Part shown: piece by piece, positions 1-22,913 of the stretch
Position numbering within the stretch: the stretch's first letter is position 1
How the letters are laid out: every line of letters begins with the position of its first letter
NCBI GenBank assembly: GCA_026992315.1
Contig: JALXAG010000161.1
Location: 1 to 50,389 of the forward strand
Source of the DNA: Sneathiellales bacterium
GTDB lineage: Bacteria; Pseudomonadota; Alphaproteobacteria; Minwuiales; Minwuiaceae
Direction of reading: 5' to 3'
DNA length: 50,389 nt
Notes under the pieces: generated by a model
Told to the model about the DNA's origin: nothing
The model's input: only the letters and a program-made list of their open reading frames with translations
The model's database searches: none
Position numbers and translations under genes: made by a program

Positions 1-546
1 GCTGGCAGAGATATCGAACAGGGCGATGCCGCCGCGAATGCCGATGGTGGCCGAAGGGGTCTTCAGAACAACGGGCGTTTTCTTGCTGATGCGTCCGCCA
101 ACGAAACGGAACAGCCCCTTGGCGGCGCTCAGGGCCAGGGTGCCGGCTTTGGCATCGGGATCGTAAACGAATTTGTCGATGGTGATGGCGCTGGAGGGAC
201 CGACGGTCAGGGCCGATCCGTCAAGAAACAAAAGCTGGGTTTGGCCATCGGGCCCGGTTCTGACCTGTTCCTGAAAGAACATCCGGCTGCCGACCAGAAG
301 CTGCCGGCGCCGATTGTCGGAAATTATTCCTTCCGCATCGGGGTTGACGGCAGTGGCGACGCCGATATCGCGCAGCCCTTCCTCCGCCGCGCGGGCGCCG
401 AAGGACGGGCCGATGCATGCGAAGGTCAGAAAAAAAGCACCCAGAATCGCATGCCGGGCTGCCGTGGCGGGTGTCCGGGTCCGCCGGTGTTTTCTGCCAT
501 TGTGTTTGCTTTTCGCTGTGGCGTTCTTATTGCCGGTTGTTTCCAT
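1..546 (-). CDS. FecR-domain protein, 3' end outside window
   Basis: Open reading frame of 182 codons that starts at 546 and runs off the left edge, so the C-terminus is missing. A basic N-terminal stretch is followed by a hydrophobic segment (about residues 35-52) ending in an Ala-rich site, which looks like a signal peptide and suggests a periplasmic protein. The rest matches the FecR fold as known from family members: 'LLVGSRMFFQEQVRTGPDG', a 'LLFLDGSALTVGP' turn, and 'TPSATIGIRGG' near the edge. In alphaproteobacteria such stand-alone FecR-domain proteins usually have no known partner; they are not necessarily iron-dicitrate regulators. The gene is divergent from the flavin hydroxylase at 737. 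Start chosen because it is the first ATG giving a complete signal peptide; no strong ribosome site is visible. Confidence 0.8.
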   Translation of the reverse strand, partial: METTGNKNATAKSKHNGRKHRRTRTPATAARHAILGAFFLTFACIGPSFGARAAEEGLRDIGVATAVNPDAEGIISDNRRRQLLVGSRMFFQEQVRTGPDGQTQLLFLDGSALTVGPSSAITIDKFVYDPDAKAGTLALSAAKGLFRFVGGRISKKTPVVLKTPSATIGIRGGIALFDISAS

Positions 547-681: not shown

Positions 682-715
682 TTGCCGCAATTTATTTTAT
701 GCTTAAAATAAATTG
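682..715 (+). promoter_or_regulatory. Promoter overlapped by a perfect palindromic operator
   Basis: TTGCCG at 682-687 and TAAAAT at 704-709 are separated by 16 bases and resemble a sigma-70 promoter. A perfect inverted repeat with 12-base arms covers the spacer and -10: CAATTTATTTTA (688-699), spacer TGCT, TAAAATAAATTG (704-715). It ends 21 bases before the start codon at 737. A repressor of the TetR or MarR type bound here would block transcription; that is inference, and no adjacent regulator gene is visible. Confidence 0.65.
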
Positions 716-736
716 AAACAGTAAGGGGACGGATAA

Positions 737-3037
737 ATGAAGGTCATGGTTCTGGGCGGCGGTCCCGGAGGATTGTTTTTTGCCATTCTGATGAAGCGCC
801 AGCATCCGCACAGCCGCATCACGGTGCTGGAACGCAACCAGCCCGGCGATACCTTTGGCTTCGGCGTTGTCTTTTCGGACGAAACGCTGAGCGAGTTCAT
901 GAGCGCCGATGAAGAAGTCTATCGGGAGATCAGAAGCAATTTCGCCTATTGGGACGAGATCGACGTTCATTTCGGCGGCGAGGTGATCCGTTCCGCCGGT
1001 CATGGCTTTTGCGGGCTGTCGCGGCGGCGGCTTCTGAACATTCTTCAGCGCCGCGCCGCGGATCTGGGTGTGGATGTCCGTTTCGGCACCGAATTCGGCG
1101 GCGATGCCCTGAAGGATTACCCGGATGCGGATCTGATCGTTGCCGCCGACGGCATCAATTCGGCGGTGCGCGGGCATTACAGCGATGCGTTTCGTCCCAG
1201 CCTCGACTGGCGGCAGAACAAATTCGTCTGGCTGGGCACCACCAAGCCGCTCGAGGCGTTCAGCTTCTATTTCCGCGATACTCCCTACGGTCTGTTTCAG
1301 GCCCATGCCTATCAGTTCGAGGAGGGGATGGCGACCTTCATCGTCGAAACCCAGGAGAAGAGCTGGAAGGCGGCGGGCCTGGACAAGGCGGACGAGGCCG
1401 CGACCCTGGCGTTCTGCGAGAAAGTCTTTGCCGAGGATCTGGACGGCCATAAGCTGGTGGCGAACAAATCGATCTGGCGCACCTTTCCCACGGTGCGCTG
1501 CGAAAGCTGGGTTCATGACCGGCTGGTGCTGATCGGCGATGCCGCCCATACGGCGCATTTTTCCATCGGTTCCGGCACCAAACTGGCGATGGAGGATGCG
1601 ATCACGCTGGCCGATGTGCTGAAGCGGCCGGAAGATCTGGCGGATATTCCGGCGGCGCTGCAGGATTACGACCGCCGCCGCCACGATGAGGTTGGCAAGC
1701 TGCAGCATGCGGCGCAGGTATCGCTGGAATGGTTCGAGCATGTACCGCGATACCGCGCCTTTTCGCCCCTGCAATTTGCCGTCAGCCTGCTGTCGCGCTC
1801 CAAGCGGATCACCTATGAAAATCTGCGTCTGCGCGATCCGGCCTTTATCGATGGCGTGCAGCGCTGGTTCGCCGAAGAAGCCTATGCCCAGGCGGGGCGG
1901 GCGGTGCCGGCCGATCCGCCGCCGCCGGCCTTCACGCCGTTTCGCCTGCGCAACATGGTGGTGGAAAACCGCATCGTCGTCTCGCCCATGTGCCAGTATT
2001 CGGCCAAGGACGGGGTGCCGGGACCGTGGCATATGGTTCATCTGGGCAGCCGGGCCGTCGGCGGGGCCGGGCTGGTCTTCACCGAGATGACCGATGTCAG
2101 CGCCGACGGGCGCATCACGCCGGGCTGCACGGGATTGTACAACGATGTTCAGGAGGCGGCCTGGAAGGATATTGTCGATTTCGTCCATGAGCACACGCAG
2201 GCGAAAATCTGCATGCAGATTTCCCATGCCGGGCGCAAGGGGGCGACCTGCCTGCCATGGGCCGGCGGCTACGACGAACCGCTGAAGGATGGCGGCTGGC
2301 CGCTGATCAGTGCTTCCCCCATTCCCTATCTGCCGCACAGCCAGGTGCCGAAGCAGATGGATCGCGAGGACATGGACCGGGTGCTCGGCGATTTCGCTGC
2401 CGCCGCCCGGCGCGCCCTGCGGGCCGGTTTCGACATGCTGGAAATACACATGGCCCATGGTTATCTGCTGTCCAGCTTCATTTCCCCGGCAACCAACAGG
2501 CGCCAGGATGAATATGGCGGCGATCTGGCCGGGCGGATGCGCTATCCGCTGGAGGTGCTCGATGCCGTGCGTGCCGCCTGGGGGGCGGAAAAACCCTTAT
2601 CCGTGCGTATTTCGGCGGTGGACTGGCTGCCCCCCGGCCAGGGGCTTGAGGAAGACGAGGCCGTGGAAGTGGCGCGCATGCTCAAGGAACATGGCGCGGA
2701 TCTGATCGATGTCTCCAGCGGTCAGACAACGCCGGAGGCCGAACCGGTTTACGGGCGCATGTATCAGGTGCCCTTCGCCGATGCCATCAGGCAGGAAGCC
2801 GGTATCGCCACCATGGCGGTCGGCAACATCACCAGCGCCGATCAGGTCAGCACCATCATTGCGGCCGGGCGGGCCGATCTGGCGGCGCTGGCGCGGCCGC
2901 ATCTGGCCGATCCCTATTTCACCCTGCATGAGGCGGTCAATCTGAACCGGCCCGATATTCCGTGGCCGAAACAATATCAGGCGGGTGCGGAACAGGCGTT
3001 TCTGCTGGCGGAACGCGCCCGGGCCGAACAGCAATAA
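737..3037 (+). CDS. Bifunctional aromatic-CoA hydroxylase / OYE-type reductase (salicylyl-CoA 5-hydroxylase or 2-aminobenzoyl-CoA monooxygenase/reductase type)
   Basis: A 766-residue two-domain flavoenzyme. Residues 1-390 are a class A FAD monooxygenase: a Rossmann GGGPGG at 6-11 and the FAD-binding '[14 protein letters not shown]' near 265. From about residue 398 to the end it is an NADH:flavin oxidoreductase of the Old Yellow Enzyme family ('[12 protein letters not shown]', 'QISHAGRKG', '[13 protein letters not shown]', 'NRRQDEYGG'). This fusion and length are known for salicylyl-CoA 5-hydroxylase/oxidoreductase and for 2-aminobenzoyl-CoA monooxygenase/reductase, which hydroxylate and then reduce an aryl-CoA thioester in the cytoplasm. 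The substrate cannot be decided here because no other gene of either pathway is adjacent. Start supported by AAGGGG seven bases upstream. Confidence 0.9.
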
Positions 3038-3140: not shown

Positions 3141-5108
3141 TTATCGGTCCTCTTCCGCCTTTGCCGTCTTGTCGGCGGATTCTGCGGATTTCTCAGCGGT
3201 ATCGTCCGCCGCTGCGGGGGTCTGTCCGTCCGCGTCTTCCGGCAGGGCGCGCAGCAGAAATTCCGACTGGCGCCGTGCGAAGGCAGCCGGATCGGGCAGG
3301 GGTTCGCCTTCGATGACCCGGGCCTGATCCAGCAGCAGATGCGCCGCATCCTCGATCAGCTTGCGCGCGGCCTTGTCCTTTGCCTTTGCCGCCAGATTGC
3401 GGATCAGCGGATGATCGGGATTGATTTCCAGAATCCGCTTGTTCAGGGCTTCGAGCTGGTTCTGCTGTTTCAGCAGCCGCTCCAGATGCATGTCCAGCCC
3501 CGTATCGCCGGCAACGAGACAGACGGCGCTGCTCGTCAGGCGTGCCGATGAACGCACGTCGCTGACCTCATCGCCGAGGGCCTGCTTGAAAATGGCGGTG
3601 AGCACGGCGATGTCGCCCTTGGCTGCGTTCTCCTTCTTTTCATCGCCCTTGTCGTCCTTGGCGGCGATATCGTCGAGATCCGCCTGCCCGCGGGTGACGG
3701 AACGCAGGGGCAGCCCCTCGTATTCATCGCTCATCTGCGGCCAGAAATCGTCGATCGGGTCGGTCAGCAGCAGCACGTCGATGCCGCGGGCGAGATAGCC
3801 TTCGAGCTGCGGGCTCTGGCGCAGGGCCTCGCTATCCTCGCCGGTGATGTAGTAAATGGCCTTCTGCCCTTCGACCATGGCGTTGCGATAGTCTTCGAGG
3901 CTGATCAGCCCATCGCTTTTCGCGCTTCTGAAACGGGCCAGTTTCAGCAGCTTTTCGCGGTTGCCCGGATCCTCATACAGCCCTTCCTTGAGCACGGCGC
4001 CGAAATTGTTCCAGAAGGTTTCATAGGCCTCCTTGTCCTTGGCGGCGCGGCGTTCCAGCTCCTTGATCACCCGTTTGGTGATGGCATTGCGGATATGACC
4101 GATCAGCGGGTTGTTCTGCAGCAGTTCGCGGCTGACGTTCAGCGGCAGATCCTCCGTATCGACCACGCCGCGCAGGAAGCGCAGATAGGGCGGAACCAGA
4201 TCCTCGCAATCCTCGGTGATGAAGACCCGCTTCACATACAGCTTGACGCCGTGCTTGCGTTCCGGGCGGAACAGATCGAAAGGCTTCTGCCCCGGAATGT
4301 ACAGCAGCAGGGTATAGTCCACCTTGCCTTCGACATGGGTATGCAGCCAGCCCCAGGGCTCGTCGAAGGCGTGGGCGATATGGTGATAGAATTCCTTGTA
4401 TTGCTCTTCGCTGATGTCCTGTTTGGCTCGTGTCCACAGGGCCGAGGCCTGGTTGACGGTTTCGCCCTCCTCTTCCGGTGTTGCCTTCAGGCGGATCGGG
4501 ATGGCGATATGATCCGAATAGGTCTTGATGATCTGTCTGATGCGCTCGGCTTCGAGGAATTCATCGGCATCCTTGCGGATGTGCAGAATGACATCGGTGC
4601 CGGGGCCGGGGCGCTCGCCCTCGGCGATTTCATAGCTGCCGGTCCCCTCCGATTCCCAGTGCCAGGCATTGCCTTCGCCGGCTTTGCGGCTAAGCACTTC
4701 CACCTTTTCGGCGACCATGAAACTGGCGTAAAAGCCAACGCCGAACTGTCCGATCAGCGATACCCCGCCATCCTCGGCCTTTTCCATCTGTTCGAGAAAG
4801 GCACCGGTTCCCGAATGGGCGATGGTCCCGAGATTTTCGATCAGGTCATCGCGGTTCATGCCGATGCCGTTATCGCTGACGGTCAGGGTGCGCCTGTCCT
4901 TGTCGATGGTGACGGTGATGGCGAATTCGCCATTGCCTTCGGTCAGTTCGGGGCGGGTCAGGGCCGCATAGCGCAGCTTGTCGCAGGCATCGCTGGCATT
5001 GGAAATCAGCTCCCGCAGAAAGACTTCGCGGTCGCTGTAAAGCGAATGGGTGACGATATGCAGAAGCTTGCTGACTTCTGCCTGGAAATCGAGCTTCTCG
5101 GCGCTCAT
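3141..5108 (-). CDS. htpG: Molecular chaperone HtpG (bacterial Hsp90)
   Basis: A 655-residue cytosolic ATP-dependent chaperone that helps client proteins fold and recover from stress. The N-terminal GHKL ATPase signatures are all present: 'ELISNASDACDK' near residue 33, 'DNGIGM' near 79, 'GTIAHSGT' near 93 and 'IGQFGVGFYASFMVAEKV' near 115. The middle domain has the expected 'NVSRELLQNNP'. It is slightly longer than typical HtpG (about 620-640) because of a charged Ala/Lys/Asp/Glu tail. Start supported by AGGAG upstream. It is monocistronic: an RpoH-like promoter at 5193-5222 and a terminator at 3092-3115 frame it. Confidence 0.97.
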   Translation of the reverse strand: MSAEKLDFQAEVSKLLHIVTHSLYSDREVFLRELISNASDACDKLRYAALTRPELTEGNGEFAITVTIDKDRRTLTVSDNGIGMNRDDLIENLGTIAHSGTGAFLEQMEKAEDGGVSLIGQFGVGFYASFMVAEKVEVLSRKAGEGNAWHWESEGTGSYEIAEGERPGPGTDVILHIRKDADEFLEAERIRQIIKTYSDHIAIPIRLKATPEEEGETVNQASALWTRAKQDISEEQYKEFYHHIAHAFDEPWGWLHTHVEGKVDYTLLLYIPGQKPFDLFRPERKHGVKLYVKRVFITEDCEDLVPPYLRFLRGVVDTEDLPLNVSRELLQNNPLIGHIRNAITKRVIKELERRAAKDKEAYETFWNNFGAVLKEGLYEDPGNREKLLKLARFRSAKSDGLISLEDYRNAMVEGQKAIYYITGEDSEALRQSPQLEGYLARGIDVLLLTDPIDDFWPQMSDEYEGLPLRSVTRGQADLDDIAAKDDKGDEKKENAAKGDIAVLTAIFKQALGDEVSDVRSSARLTSSAVCLVAGDTGLDMHLERLLKQQNQLEALNKRILEINPDHPLIRNLAAKAKDKAARKLIEDAAHLLLDQARVIEGEPLPDPAAFARRQSEFLLRALPEDADGQTPAAADDTAEKSAESADKTAKAEEDR

Positions 5109-5192
5109 TGCTACGCTTCTCCTGTTCTGCCGTCATATGCCGCGGCACGGCGGACGACCGCGGCTCTTTCCTGAAACTGCAACGCTGCCCCA

Positions 5193-5222
5193 TAGATGGG
5201 ATGCCGGGTTGCGGCCATCAAG
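5193..5222 (-). promoter_or_regulatory. RpoH (sigma-32) heat-shock promoter of htpG
   Basis: On the minus strand CTTGATG (5222-5216), a 15-base spacer, then CCCATCTA (5200-5193). This closely fits the sigma-32 consensus CTTGAA / CCCATnTA. The predicted transcript would start near 5186, about 80 bases before the htpG start, inside the only gap upstream of the gene. The motif fit plus position before a classical heat-shock gene makes it convincing. Confidence 0.82.
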
Positions 5223-5231
5223 AGGGGGCGG

Positions 5232-6464
5232 TTACAGGGCGATGACCGGTCGTGCAGAGGCACCCGCCGGCTGCCCGCGGCGCAGCAGCAGGCGGTGATT
5301 GGCCGGATCGGCGGCAGCGGCGATATCCTCTGCCGGATTGCCCTCGACGATCAGCAGATCGGCGATGGCGCCGGCTTCGATCCGTCCGTGATCCTCCAGG
5401 CGCAACAGATCGGCGGCGGTGCTGGTGGCGGCGATCAGGGCATCCAGCGGGCGCATGCCCGCCTCGACCATCAGGGCCAGTTCCTGCGGATTTTCGCCAT
5501 GCTGATTGAAGGGCGTGCCGGCATCGGTGCCCATGGCGATGCGTCCGCCTGCCTGATAAAACATGGCGAAGGCCCTGATGTGGCGCTCATAGACCCGCTC
5601 GCTCTTTTCGATGATGAAGGCGGGAATGCCGTTGTCGCGGTTCTTCAGAATATTGGCCACGGCGGAAAGGGTCGGTACCAGGAAGGTGCCGCGTTCCAGC
5701 ATCTCGCGGAGGCATTCATCGTTCATGAAGATGCCGTGTTCGATCGAGGTGACACCGGCGCGCACGGCATTCAGAATGCCTTCGGCGCCCTGGGCGTGCG
5801 AGGCGGTGGTGCGGTGGAAGCGTTCGGCCTCGGCCACGCCTGCGGCCAGTTCCGCCTCGGTATAATGGGCGTCTTCGGGGTTGACGCCCGGGGTCATGAC
5901 GCCGCCGGTCGCCATCAGCTTGATCACATCGGCGCGCTTGTGGATATTGGCCCGCACCGCCCTGATCACCTCATCGCGTCCGTCGGCGATGATGCCGGAG
6001 CGGTTGCCATGCCCGCCGGTCATGCAGATCATCCGCCCGCAGGCCCGCATTTCCGGCCCCTGAAACGTTCCGGCGTTGAGGGCATCGCGCACATCGATAT
6101 CGACGTAATTATGCCCGCCGCAATCGCGGATGGCGACGATGCCCGCCTTCAGGGTTTTCTGTGCCCTTTCCAGCGCTTTCAGGGCCAGGGCCGCATCGGA
6201 AAGCTTGCCCTGGGCGGTGCCCGGATCGGCCTCGGCCCCCAGCGTCAGATGGACATGACAGTCGATCATGCCGGGCATCAGCGTCAGGTCGTCTCCTGCG
6301 GCATCGAGCACGGTGCCGGCAAAGCCTTCGAAGCTGGCAGGCACGTCGATGGCGGCGATGCGCCCGTCTTCGATCAGGACGGCGCGCGGCGCCTCGATCA
6401 TGTCGTGGCCGTCGAAAATGCGCATGCCGGAAATCAGGATCTGCACGTTGTTGCCTCCATTCAT
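5232..6464 (-). CDS. Metal-dependent amidohydrolase (imidazolonepropionase/prolidase-like)
   Basis: About 410 residues with the amidohydrolase TIM-barrel metal ligands in order: 'DCHVHLTL' (HxH), 'VIKLMATGGVMTPG' (the lysine that is carboxylated in this family), 'ASHAQG', 'IEHG' and 'MGTDAGTP' (final Asp). It probably hydrolyses a C-N bond in a small cytoplasmic substrate such as a dipeptide or lactam; the exact substrate is unknown. The ATG at 6464 overlaps the stop of the upstream glutathione-transferase gene (ATGA), implying coupling. An in-frame GTG at 6446 has a better ribosome site (GGAGG, seven bases away) and may be the real start. It forms a two-gene operon with the GST gene. Confidence 0.88.
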   Translation of the reverse strand: MNGGNNVQILISGMRIFDGHDMIEAPRAVLIEDGRIAAIDVPASFEGFAGTVLDAAGDDLTLMPGMIDCHVHLTLGAEADPGTAQGKLSDAALALKALERAQKTLKAGIVAIRDCGGHNYVDIDVRDALNAGTFQGPEMRACGRMICMTGGHGNRSGIIADGRDEVIRAVRANIHKRADVIKLMATGGVMTPGVNPEDAHYTEAELAAGVAEAERFHRTTASHAQGAEGILNAVRAGVTSIEHGIFMNDECLREMLERGTFLVPTLSAVANILKNRDNGIPAFIIEKSERVYERHIRAFAMFYQAGGRIAMGTDAGTPFNQHGENPQELALMVEAGMRPLDALIAATSTAADLLRLEDHGRIEAGAIADLLIVEGNPAEDIAAAADPANHRLLLRRGQPAGASARPVIAL

Positions 6465-7168
6465 GACTGACGACGGAAAACCGGGGCATCGCGCCCCAAT
6501 CCGCCATAAAGGGCGCCGACGCGTCCGAACCATGCCCCTTCGGGGGTGGCAGGATCGAGGCGCACGCGCTCGGAAATGCAATGGGCCCACTGAAAGGCGG
6601 AATAAACGATGTAATCGGCATAAAGCGGTGCCTTGCCGCCAATGAACGGCGCTTCTTTCAGCCGGGCGCGCAGAGGGGCTAGGATTGCCGGCAGTTGCGC
6701 CAGGGATTCGGGGGCGCGGGCGGCGATTTCCTCCAGCGGCGCGCCAAGGCGGGCCTCGCGGCTTGTACGGAAATAGGCGCGGTTTTCCTCATCCAGCGCC
6801 GCTTCGATATCGAGAATGATTGCCGGCAGGATCAGCGGATGAACGCTTCGTTCCGTCCAGTGCTTGTAGAAACGGGTCAGTTCCCTGCCTGCAGTGTCGC
6901 CGAACAGGGCGGGAGCCTGCGGTTTTGCCGCTTCGAAGGCATCGGCGATGGCATCGGAATTGTCATAAACCCGTCCGTTCCAGACCATGAGGGGCGCCGT
7001 GCCGGCATTGGCGCCCTCCGCATCCAGGCGGGATTTTTCGATAAAACGCCAGGGAACATATTCTGCCCCGATGCCCTTATGCGCCGCCGCCAGCTTCACC
7101 CGCCAGCAATAGGGCGAGAAGCGCACGGCCGCATCCGCGCCCGCCAGATCGTATATTTTTGCCGTCAT
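6461..7168 (-). CDS. Glutathione S-transferase, LigE/beta-etherase-like
   Basis: A 235-residue protein with an N-terminal thioredoxin-like glutathione-binding half and an all-helical C-terminal half. 'SPYCWRVKLAAAHKG' near residue 19, 'APLMVWNGRVYDNSDAIA', 'GGKAPLYADYIVYSAFQWA' and the closing 'GGLGRDAPVF' resemble, from memory, the LigE lignin beta-aryl etherase group (SPYVWRTKYALKHKG, ADY, GGLGRDA) more than other GST classes. It likely uses glutathione in the cytoplasm to cleave an ether or to conjugate or isomerise an aromatic compound; true etherase activity is not shown. First gene of an operon with the amidohydrolase (ATGA overlap). Start chosen at ATG 7168 with GGAG just upstream; ATG 7189 is an alternative. 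Confidence 0.82.
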   Translation of the reverse strand: MTAKIYDLAGADAAVRFSPYCWRVKLAAAHKGIGAEYVPWRFIEKSRLDAEGANAGTAPLMVWNGRVYDNSDAIADAFEAAKPQAPALFGDTAGRELTRFYKHWTERSVHPLILPAIILDIEAALDEENRAYFRTSREARLGAPLEEIAARAPESLAQLPAILAPLRARLKEAPFIGGKAPLYADYIVYSAFQWAHCISERVRLDPATPEGAWFGRVGALYGGLGRDAPVFRRQS

Positions 7169-7295
7169 CTCCGCCCCCGTGAGCCCCATGAATGGTTCCG
7201 GCCAATCTGTCCGAGTATGGACGTTCTGAAAAGCATTTTTTGCATCGAAACGATGCCGGGGGCTGCGGCGGAAGCTGTGACTGGATAAGCTGGGT

Positions 7296-7363
7296 AAAAA
7301 AATAGACCCGGCAACAATGGTGGGGGGGGACGGCGGAGGGGTCGCCTTTCCATTGCTGCCGGG
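7296..7363 (-). terminator. Leader terminator/attenuator candidate before the GST operon
   Basis: Minus-strand RNA pairs CCCGGCAGCAAUGG (7363-7350) with CCAUUGUUGCCGGG (7320-7307) over 14 bp including one G-U wobble; on the plus strand that position is an A-C mismatch, so the RNA that folds is the minus one. A run of seven T follows at 7302-7296. The loop is 29 bases and pyrimidine-rich. It lies 128 bases before the GST start, so it would end transcription inside the leader, or end a short antisense transcript. Confidence 0.6.
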
Positions 7364-7443
7364 CCTGGCCACGGATAGATATCTAGGGGTGCTTTCCGGC
7401 AACAGCGAGGTCATATTAGGGCCATATTGTGGCGGCGGCATTT

Positions 7444-7463
7444 TATTTGTTGGTGCACAAATA
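7444..7463 (+). promoter_or_regulatory. Inverted-repeat operator candidate before ABC transporter operon
   Basis: TATTTGT (7444-7450), a six-base spacer TGGTGC, and ACAAATA (7457-7463) form a perfect dyad 28 bases before the permease start. The position suits a repressor site over or just after a promoter. The regulator is not identifiable in the window. Confidence 0.5.
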
Positions 7464-7490
7464 TCATGTATCCTGCATCGGGGAGAAGGG

Positions 7491-8441
7491 ATGAGCGTAT
7501 TTCTGTTCAAAAGGCTGCTGACCTTTCTGGTGACGTTGCTGGCGGCATCGATGCTGACCTTCGCGGCGCTGGAGTTGCTGCCCGGCGATCCGGCGCTGGT
7601 CATTCTGGGGATCGATGCCTCCCCCGATGCGGTGGCGGCGCTCAGCCGCGAAATGGGTTTCGATCAGCCGGCCTGGCTGCGTTACGCCCGCTGGATCGGC
7701 GGGTTGCTGCAGGGGGAATTCGCCGACAGCTACACCTATAAGGTCCCGGTGTGGGAGCTTATTCGCGACCGTCTGATCATCACCGTGCCGCTGGCGGTTT
7801 TCGCCATGGTACTGACGACGATTTTCGCCTTCCTGCTGGGTATCTATGCCGCCTCCCGGCACAACCGCCCGGGGGATGTGCTGGTGATGGGCTTCAGCCA
7901 GCTGGGCATCGCCGTTCCCAATTTCTGGCTGGCGATCCTGCTGATCGTGCTGTTTGCCGTCAAGCTCGGCTGGTTCAAGTCCGGCGGTTTTCCGGGCTGG
8001 GATGCCGGTTTCTGGGAAGCGCTGAAGGCCTTGCTGCTGCCGGCGATCGCCCTGGCGACGGTGCAGGGGGCCATTCTCGCCCGTTTCACCCGATCCTCGC
8101 TGCTGGAGGTGATGCGCGAGGATTTCGTCCGCACCGCCCGGGCCAAGGGGCTGAGCCGCCGGGCGGTCTTGTGGCGGCATGTATTGCGCAATGCGCTGAT
8201 TCCGGTGGTGACGATCATGGGGTTGCAGTTTGCTTCGCTGCTGGCGGGGACCATCGTCGTCGAGAACGTTTTCGCCATTCCGGGGCTGGGGCGGCTGATC
8301 TTCCAGTCCATCGGCAACCGCGACATCGTCGTTGTCCGCGATGTGGTGCTGATGCTGGCGGCGCTGGTGGTGGCGATCAATTTTCTGGTCGATCTGCTTT
8401 ATGCGGTGATCGACCCGCGGCTGAAGGCGCATGACATATGA
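7491..8441 (+). CDS. dppB: ABC transporter permease, DppB/OppB type
   Basis: A 316-residue inner-membrane permease of the peptide/nickel importer family. The N-terminal 'FKRLLTFLVTLLAASMLTF' helix and 'LPGDPALVILG' are typical of the DppB subunit, about six membrane segments follow, and 'RTARAKGLSRRAVLWRHVLR' near 215 is the EAA coupling loop that contacts the ATPase. Start ATG 7491 follows GGGAGAAGGG directly. First gene of a four-gene operon; its stop overlaps the next start by four bases (ATGA). The usual solute-binding protein gene that precedes this subunit is absent, so the substrate (peptide, metal-chelate, opine or other) cannot be named. Confidence 0.93.
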   Translation: MSVFLFKRLLTFLVTLLAASMLTFAALELLPGDPALVILGIDASPDAVAALSREMGFDQPAWLRYARWIGGLLQGEFADSYTYKVPVWELIRDRLIITVPLAVFAMVLTTIFAFLLGIYAASRHNRPGDVLVMGFSQLGIAVPNFWLAILLIVLFAVKLGWFKSGGFPGWDAGFWEALKALLLPAIALATVQGAILARFTRSSLLEVMREDFVRTARAKGLSRRAVLWRHVLRNALIPVVTIMGLQFASLLAGTIVVENVFAIPGLGRLIFQSIGNRDIVVVRDVVLMLAALVVAINFLVDLLYAVIDPRLKAHDI

Positions 8442-9325
8442 GCATGCAGCAAGCGCAGCCGGCTTCATTGCTCTCGCGCCTGACGCGCGGCAACGGCTTT
8501 TGGGCGAGGGCGCTGCGTCACCGCAGTTTTCTCGCCGGCGGGTTTCTGAGCCTGCTGCTGGTGCTGATGGCGGTGGTTTCCGCCTTCTGGACCCCGTACG
8601 ATCCGACAAAGATGAACTTCCGTCTGCGCTTTGCCCCGCCCAGCGCCGAACACTGGCTGGGCACCGATCATTTCGGCCGCGATCTGTTTTCGATCATTCT
8701 GACCGGCGCGCAGAATTCCATCCTGGTGGGGGTGGTGTCGGTGGCCATCGGCCTGAGCTTTGGCGTGGCGCTGGGGCTGCTGGCCTCGGCCCGGCGCGGC
8801 ATGACCGAAGAGCTGGTGATGCGTTTCAGCGATTTCGCCTTCGCATTTCCGGCGATATTGCTGGCGGTGATGTTCGTCGCCGCCCTCGGGCCGGGATCGG
8901 CCAATGCCATTCTGGCCATCGGCGTTTACAACATTCCGGTATTCGCCCGTCTTTCCCGCGGTGCCGCCAATGCGGTGTGGACGCGCGAATACATCCTTGC
9001 CGCCCGGACCGCCGGCAAGGGCCGGTTGCGGATCACCATCGAACATGTGCTGCCCAACATTCTGCCGGTGATCATCGTTCAGGCAACGATACAGTTCGCC
9101 CTGGCCATTCTTGCGGAGGCGGCGTTGTCCTATCTCGGCCTCGGTGCCCAGCCGCCGGCGCCTTCCTGGGGGCGGATGCTGTCGGAGGCGCAGACCCTGA
9201 TCTACAAGGATCCGATGCTGGCGGTCTATCCCGGTCTTGCGATCGCGCTGTCGGTATTGGGTCTCAACCTGCTGGGCGACGGGCTGCGCGATATCATCGA
9301 TCCGCGTCTGTCGCGCAGGAGGTGA
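8438..9325 (+). CDS. dppC: ABC transporter permease, DppC/OppC type
   Basis: A 295-residue inner-membrane permease, the partner of the DppB-type subunit. 'APPSAEHWLGTDHFGRDLFS' near residue 66 is the hallmark periplasmic motif of DppC/OppC proteins, and 'AARTAGKGRLRITIEHVLPN' near 187 is the EAA coupling loop. 'ALSYLGLGAQPPAPSWG' near 225 is also characteristic. Translationally coupled to the gene before it (ATGA) and followed after two bases by the first ATPase gene. Confidence 0.93.
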   Translation: MSMQQAQPASLLSRLTRGNGFWARALRHRSFLAGGFLSLLLVLMAVVSAFWTPYDPTKMNFRLRFAPPSAEHWLGTDHFGRDLFSIILTGAQNSILVGVVSVAIGLSFGVALGLLASARRGMTEELVMRFSDFAFAFPAILLAVMFVAALGPGSANAILAIGVYNIPVFARLSRGAANAVWTREYILAARTAGKGRLRITIEHVLPNILPVIIVQATIQFALAILAEAALSYLGLGAQPPAPSWGRMLSEAQTLIYKDPMLAVYPGLAIALSVLGLNLLGDGLRDIIDPRLSRRR

Positions 9326-22887: not shown

Positions 22888-22913
22888 GCCCGGGCGGGGT
22901 TCCCCGCCCGGGC
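22888..22913 (+). promoter_or_regulatory. Intercistronic GC hairpin after the binding-protein gene
   Basis: GCCCGGGCGG (22888-22897) and CCGCCCGGGC (22904-22913) form a perfect 10-bp stem with loop GGTTCC. There is no T run, so it is not a classical terminator. Such hairpins after binding-protein genes commonly protect the upstream message from 3' decay and raise the binding protein above the permease and ATPase subunits. Confidence 0.65.

Follow-up and report, generated by a model that had tools for sequence, protein, structure and literature searches.

Among the described systems, the one closest in regulation to the locus analysed here is CouR of Rhodococcus jostii RHA1, a MarR-type repressor that, according to its description (PMC4737184), recognizes inverted repeats on its own promoter and on further cou promoters, and of which the DNA binding is abolished by p-coumaroyl-CoA, not by p-coumarate. 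The CouR box, cATTGA-5 bp-TCAATg, lies over the -35 box (PMC4737184). For the enzymes, the closest system is the aerobic 2-aminobenzoyl-CoA pathway of Azoarcus evansii, for which a review (PMC4539516) gives an aryl-CoA ligase, a monooxygenase/reductase flavoenzyme and beta-oxidation. As in the case of CouR, our sequence-level results point to MarR-type control of an aromatic catabolic regulon, with inverted repeats on the promoters of both the regulator and its targets, but the site found here, TTTTAAGCTTAAAA, is located over the promoter spacer and the -10 box and not over the -35 box. As in Azoarcus evansii, genes are predicted for an aryl-CoA ligase, a monooxygenase/reductase flavoenzyme and beta-oxidation-type enzymes, but the hydroxylase gene is separated from the rest and carried on a different contig. 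The 2-aminobenzoyl-CoA clusters of Azoarcus evansii (those of Schuhle 2001) reportedly include a MarR gene.

The window, that is, the whole stretch of 50,389 nucleotides that was analysed, has a GC content of 63%. Within the 190-bp gap between its first gene, on the minus strand, and the following gene on the plus strand, we identified a perfect inverted repeat, CAATTTATTTTA-TGCT-TAAAATAAATTG, with 12-bp arms. The features of this region are as follows.

1 to 546, minus strand: FecR-domain gene (domain search), divergent and cut by the contig start
682 to 687, plus strand: -35-like hexamer TTGCCG (promoter scan; the offset of its TTG recurs in site-bearing upstream regions)
688 to 715, no strand: inverted repeat, proposed MarR operator, with arms at 688-699 and 704-715 and a 4-bp spacer at 700-703 (conserved upstream of orthologues)
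704 to 709, plus strand: -10-like hexamer TAAAAT, lying in the right arm of the dyad
723 to 728, plus strand: purine-rich AAGGGG, ribosome-binding-like, 8 bp 5' of the ATG (by eye)
737 to 3037, plus strand: gene for a bifunctional aryl-CoA 5-hydroxylase (FAD monooxygenase)/old-yellow-enzyme (OYE) reductase of 766 aa (NF006101; PF01494 and PF00724)

The 766-aa product matched NF006101, the family of salicylyl-CoA 5-hydroxylase, over nearly its full length with 1157.5 bits (curated cut-off, 1078), and carries the fused FAD monooxygenase (PF01494) and OYE (PF00724) domains; the protein thus combines an aryl-CoA hydroxylase with a reductase in one chain, in good agreement with the naming of this gene in the preliminary description. 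To our knowledge, the name of the family does not distinguish enzymes for salicylyl-CoA from those for 2-aminobenzoyl-CoA. It had also been stated that no regulator gene adjoins the palindrome, which holds for the immediate flanks (the FecR-domain gene on one side, htpG downstream of the hydroxylase gene on the other), but a likely regulator was found behind the same site on another contig, as described below. The FecR-domain gene is not thought to belong to the regulon.

The palindrome was initially placed at 682-715; the dyad exists as described, with its perfect 12-bp arms, but it occupies 688-715, and the start at 682 takes in the -35-like hexamer. It was also held to be AT-rich within GC-rich DNA and unlikely by chance. 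Both statements withstood analysis: the arms are almost all A/T, and the window holds two perfect 12-bp inverted repeats with spacers of 0-8, against a mean of 0.095 in 200 resamples, none of which gave such a dyad with arms of at least 80% AT (here and for the hydroxylase upstream regions and MarR loci below, the controls were drawn by first-order Markov resampling and are no exact shuffles). The second dyad of the window, at 22888-22913, is GC-rich and perhaps a terminator.

The palindrome ends 21 bp 5' of the hydroxylase gene and spans, as had been claimed, a predicted promoter, covering the spacer and the -10 box of the sigma-70-like arrangement TTGCCG(682)-16-TAAAAT(704-709). This promoter scored 9/12, a weak call on its own because a scan of 301 bases should yield 0.5 such matches by chance. 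The prediction gains support because a TTG at the identical distance from the dyad recurs in 9 of the 44 site-bearing upstream regions (the window counted in). A TTG at offset +8 is equally frequent (9) and corresponds to the TTGAAA variant of the site itself, and the remaining offsets listed, those with at least 4 occurrences, gave 4 or 5 each.

When the 3.15-Mb genome was scanned for the core sequence ATTTTAWGCTTAAA, a pattern picked after the three sites had been seen, it was found at exactly three places, one in the window and two on contig C209, all of which precede genes of the proposed regulon; the reversed-pattern control gave no match at one mismatch or fewer. At two mismatches the true and control counts were alike (6 and 5 versus 7 and 5), and thus no regulon members beyond the three sites are claimed. 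Using the window-arm pattern with up to 3 mismatches, we detected the first C209 site (987-1008), but this detection was no better than the control, since 3 forward places stood against 5 reversed ones. The consensus derived from orthologue upstream regions, scanned independently over C209, returned sites at 989-1006 and 8520-8537. These two copies precede a MarR-containing aryl-CoA-ligase operon (a) and an ABC transporter operon (b), respectively.

C209 1023-1886: SDR, first gene of operon (a) (Pfam)
C209 1889-2362: MarR regulator, operon (a) (PF12802, PF01047)
C209 2359-3186: enoyl-CoA hydratase (ECH), operon (a) (NF006107, over cut-off)
C209 3189-4376: acyl-CoA dehydrogenase (ACAD), operon (a) (Pfam)
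C209 4373-5815: OYE, operon (a)
C209 5840-7495: aryl-CoA ligase of the benzoate-CoA-ligase family, operon (a) (TIGR02262, 376.9 bits; cut-off, 375.25)
C209 from 8701: ABC transporter set, operon (b), behind the second C209 site

In a PDB sequence search, the best match of the ligase was the anthranilate-CoA ligase 4wv3. The binding protein and the first permease of operon (b) are of the branched-chain-amino-acid/urea type, with scores under the curated NCBIfam cut-offs, and the binding protein matches Pfam PF13458; a further permease and a pair of ATPases are putative, named from their sequences. Elsewhere in the genome, a gentisate 1,2-dioxygenase is encoded at C78:19792-20796 (570 bits, over the family cut-off), and contig C78 holds no core copy at 2 mismatches or fewer. 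A weak AT-rich dyad with 3 mismatches to the window-arm pattern is located at 4616-4637 of contig C205 (L088), among genes (3554-7777) which, by eye, are presumably a benzoyl-CoA epoxidase (box) cluster; regulation of the BoxR type was considered for this place, but it was left outside the regulon.

Conservation was tested on 84 hydroxylase loci plus the window; 83 were scored after removal of two without an N-terminal match (L204 and L210), and among these 83, L041 has 71 bp of upstream sequence only. Three hydroxylase genes of the class survey with truncated starts (G239, G005 and G081) and the relatives matching one half of the protein only (L011-L026, L028, L029 and L043-L063) were left out. 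The site, with at most 2 mismatches in the 12 core positions and within 200 bp upstream, was found for 45 of the 83 orthologues versus 2.2% of resamples: 15 of the first 19, among which were the upstream regions inspected before the consensus was written, and 30 of the 64 fetched later. Related genomes, such as three of Neorhizobium, were counted separately, and 43 of the 45 site 26-mers are distinct. Among 80 genes with 590 bp or more of upstream sequence, an open frame on the same strand that stops within 60 bp of the gene, by which a gene looks operon-internal, was observed for 23 of 31 siteless genes versus 6 of 43 site-bearing ones (about 600 bp upstream examined), a crude test given the chance open frames of GC-rich DNA; six genes with 3 mismatches were placed in neither group, and two of these look operon-internal. 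The sites are distributed mostly in Alphaproteobacteria, the class surveyed, with outside examples in Woeseia (L008) and Cupriavidus (L027) at 2 mismatches and Sulfuritalea (L004) at 3. Upstream of the hydroxylase gene of one alphaproteobacterial MAG (L003, 4936-4985), the same dyad has perfect 23-bp arms, either real or an assembly effect. In seven orthologues (L181, L183, L185, L187, L190, L199 and L207), a second CTTGAAAT-like half-dyad was noticed by eye directly 3' of the first, which suggests that two overlapping operators may be present there.

The C209 MarR protein matches PF12802 (50.6 bits) and PF01047 (43.9 bits), both over the cut-offs, in its winged-helix domain. Its best PDB sequence match is 3boq (E 5.7e-22), labelled 'Transcriptional regulator, MarR family'; the names of its PDB matches are mostly generic, and CouR is not identifiable among them. 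The predicted structure (pLDDT 84.5, pTM 0.68) has the MarR fold, with a best fold-comparison score of Z 14.8, and with Z 14.2 (rmsd 3.5, 133 aligned) against E. coli MarR 1jgs and Z 14.0 (rmsd 4.0, 138 aligned) against the SlyA-DNA complex 3q5f; the domain match outweighs this fold match, because helical models can reach such Z values. Four residues of the recognition-helix region (V73, G76, N77 and T79) are invariant in 16 aligned MarR relatives, as would fit a fixed operator.

A relative of this MarR protein at E<=1e-10 was found in all 18 of the hydroxylase-bearing genomes searched. For 20 MarR regions (our own and 19 fetched), the site precedes the MarR transcription unit in 11 (L087, L121-L129 and L131), overlapping the start of the SDR alignment in L125, while L130 is truncated where its contig stops. 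The other eight (L132-L139) have no good site at MarR itself: in L134, L136, L137 and L138 it lies instead before the hydroxylase gene of the same region (L134 carrying an additional weak site, 6 mismatches, before its MarR gene), L135 has only a weak site, also of 6 mismatches, before its ligase gene, and none was found in the MarR regions L132, L133 and L139. In a larger set of 45 MarR loci (L092-L111 and L211-L235), which are the best-scoring and not all of them, a site of no more than 2 mismatches was detected within about 1.5 kb in 27 loci versus 1.2% of resamples, the one counted for L106 belonging to the neighbouring hydroxylase, and no such site was detected in the other 18.

The two genes also occur together. 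Of 385 genomes of the class, the hydroxylase is encoded in 71, the MarR in 67 and both in 62 (Fisher p 2e-55, uncorrected for relatedness); at the threshold used, 9 of the 71 hydroxylase carriers have no MarR and 5 of the 67 MarR carriers no hydroxylase. The exact core is present in 9 of 60 relatives searched: in the SDR-MarR region of G002 and G007, before the hydroxylase of G058 (by coordinates), and at four places of G018, two before its hydroxylase and SDR-MarR operon and two (L253 and L254) with no close regulon gene beside them. Four further genomes with the exact core (G023, G025, G055 and G067) are not among the 71 hydroxylase carriers.

The conservation, the further copies in the genome and the association with a MarR gene support the earlier proposal of a repressor operator on the hydroxylase promoter, and we propose with considerable confidence that 688-715 is the operator of the MarR-family repressor encoded on the other contig (G000:C209:1889-2362). 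From the site, its copies, its conservation and its MarR association, all established by computation, we infer binding and repression, together with the inducer, the substrate and the cargo of the transporter. A dimer of the C209 MarR would cover the spacer and the -10 box and block RNA polymerase, and it would also occupy the sites in front of its own operon (SDR-MarR-ECH-ACAD-OYE-aryl-CoA ligase) and of the ABC transporter operon. Repression may be tight, as had been proposed at first. Release by a ligand would induce the ligase, the transporter and the hydroxylase together, and a repressor shared by three sites would thus join the induction of uptake, CoA activation, ring hydroxylation/reduction and beta-oxidation. 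The inducer may be the aryl-CoA product of the ligase reaction, most likely 2-aminobenzoyl-CoA, or the free acid; the aryl-CoA is favoured because CouR responds to the aryl-CoA of its own pathway.

Since the genome encodes 23 proteins with PF12802 matches, 14 of them over the cut-off, the dyad could serve another MarR-like protein, or a TetR regulator. We consider this improbable, because the C209 protein is the only one in its own genome to match the regulon MarR at E<=1e-10, its operon itself carries the site, a site is present at 27 of the 45 MarR loci, and hydroxylase and MarR are found together in 62 of the 385 class genomes. A perfect dyad could also stem from a terminator of transcription, from an RNA hairpin or from chance, and AT-rich intergenic DNA is common, but such an origin is scarcely credible: the flanking genes diverge (1-546 minus, 737-3037 plus), so that neither reads into the dyad, and this orientation and the A/T-rich arms led us to reject a terminator or hairpin, just as chance was rejected after the conservation before orthologues and the lack of AT-rich dyads among the window resamples.

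Anthranilate is the likeliest substrate, since the best PDB sequence match of the ligase is an anthranilate-CoA ligase and the regulon includes enzymes of the beta-oxidation type, which the 2-aminobenzoyl-CoA route requires (PMC4539516). The same operator and MarR could instead control a salicylate pathway (salicylyl-CoA to gentisate), with salicylate or salicylyl-CoA as the inducer, as the NCBIfam name of the hydroxylase and the gentisate dioxygenase gene on C78 would suit. This we hold to be unlikely, though by no means negligible: no core copy within 2 mismatches on C78 places that dioxygenase under the same operator, the regulon has SDR, ECH, ACAD and OYE, which suit a route by beta-oxidation, and the best PDB match of the ligase is to an anthranilate enzyme.

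Among the titles and abstract openings listed by literature searches, mostly without subscription papers, none concerned this operator, and the motif as a text string gave no match; BadR is named in the references of PMC4992971. It is conceivable, if somewhat short of probable, that an undescribed regulon of Alphaproteobacteria and some other proteobacteria is represented here, in which a MarR protein with the conserved TTTTAAGCTTAAAA operator would sense 2-aminobenzoyl-CoA itself and coordinate how anthranilate is imported, activated, hydroxylated and degraded by beta-oxidation, also in genomes whose hydroxylase gene has moved out of the cluster; two overlapping operators seem to serve some of the orthologues.

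Judged from the sequences, this is very probably a MarR-regulated switch of the ordinary bacterial kind, with a clear motif and target set conserved among relatives. Ordinary as the mechanism itself is, an aromatic-acid pathway of bacteria that have received little study gains a candidate regulator, an operator and a list of targets, and the motif can be used for finding the regulon in other genomes and for assigning a function to uncharacterised MarR proteins.
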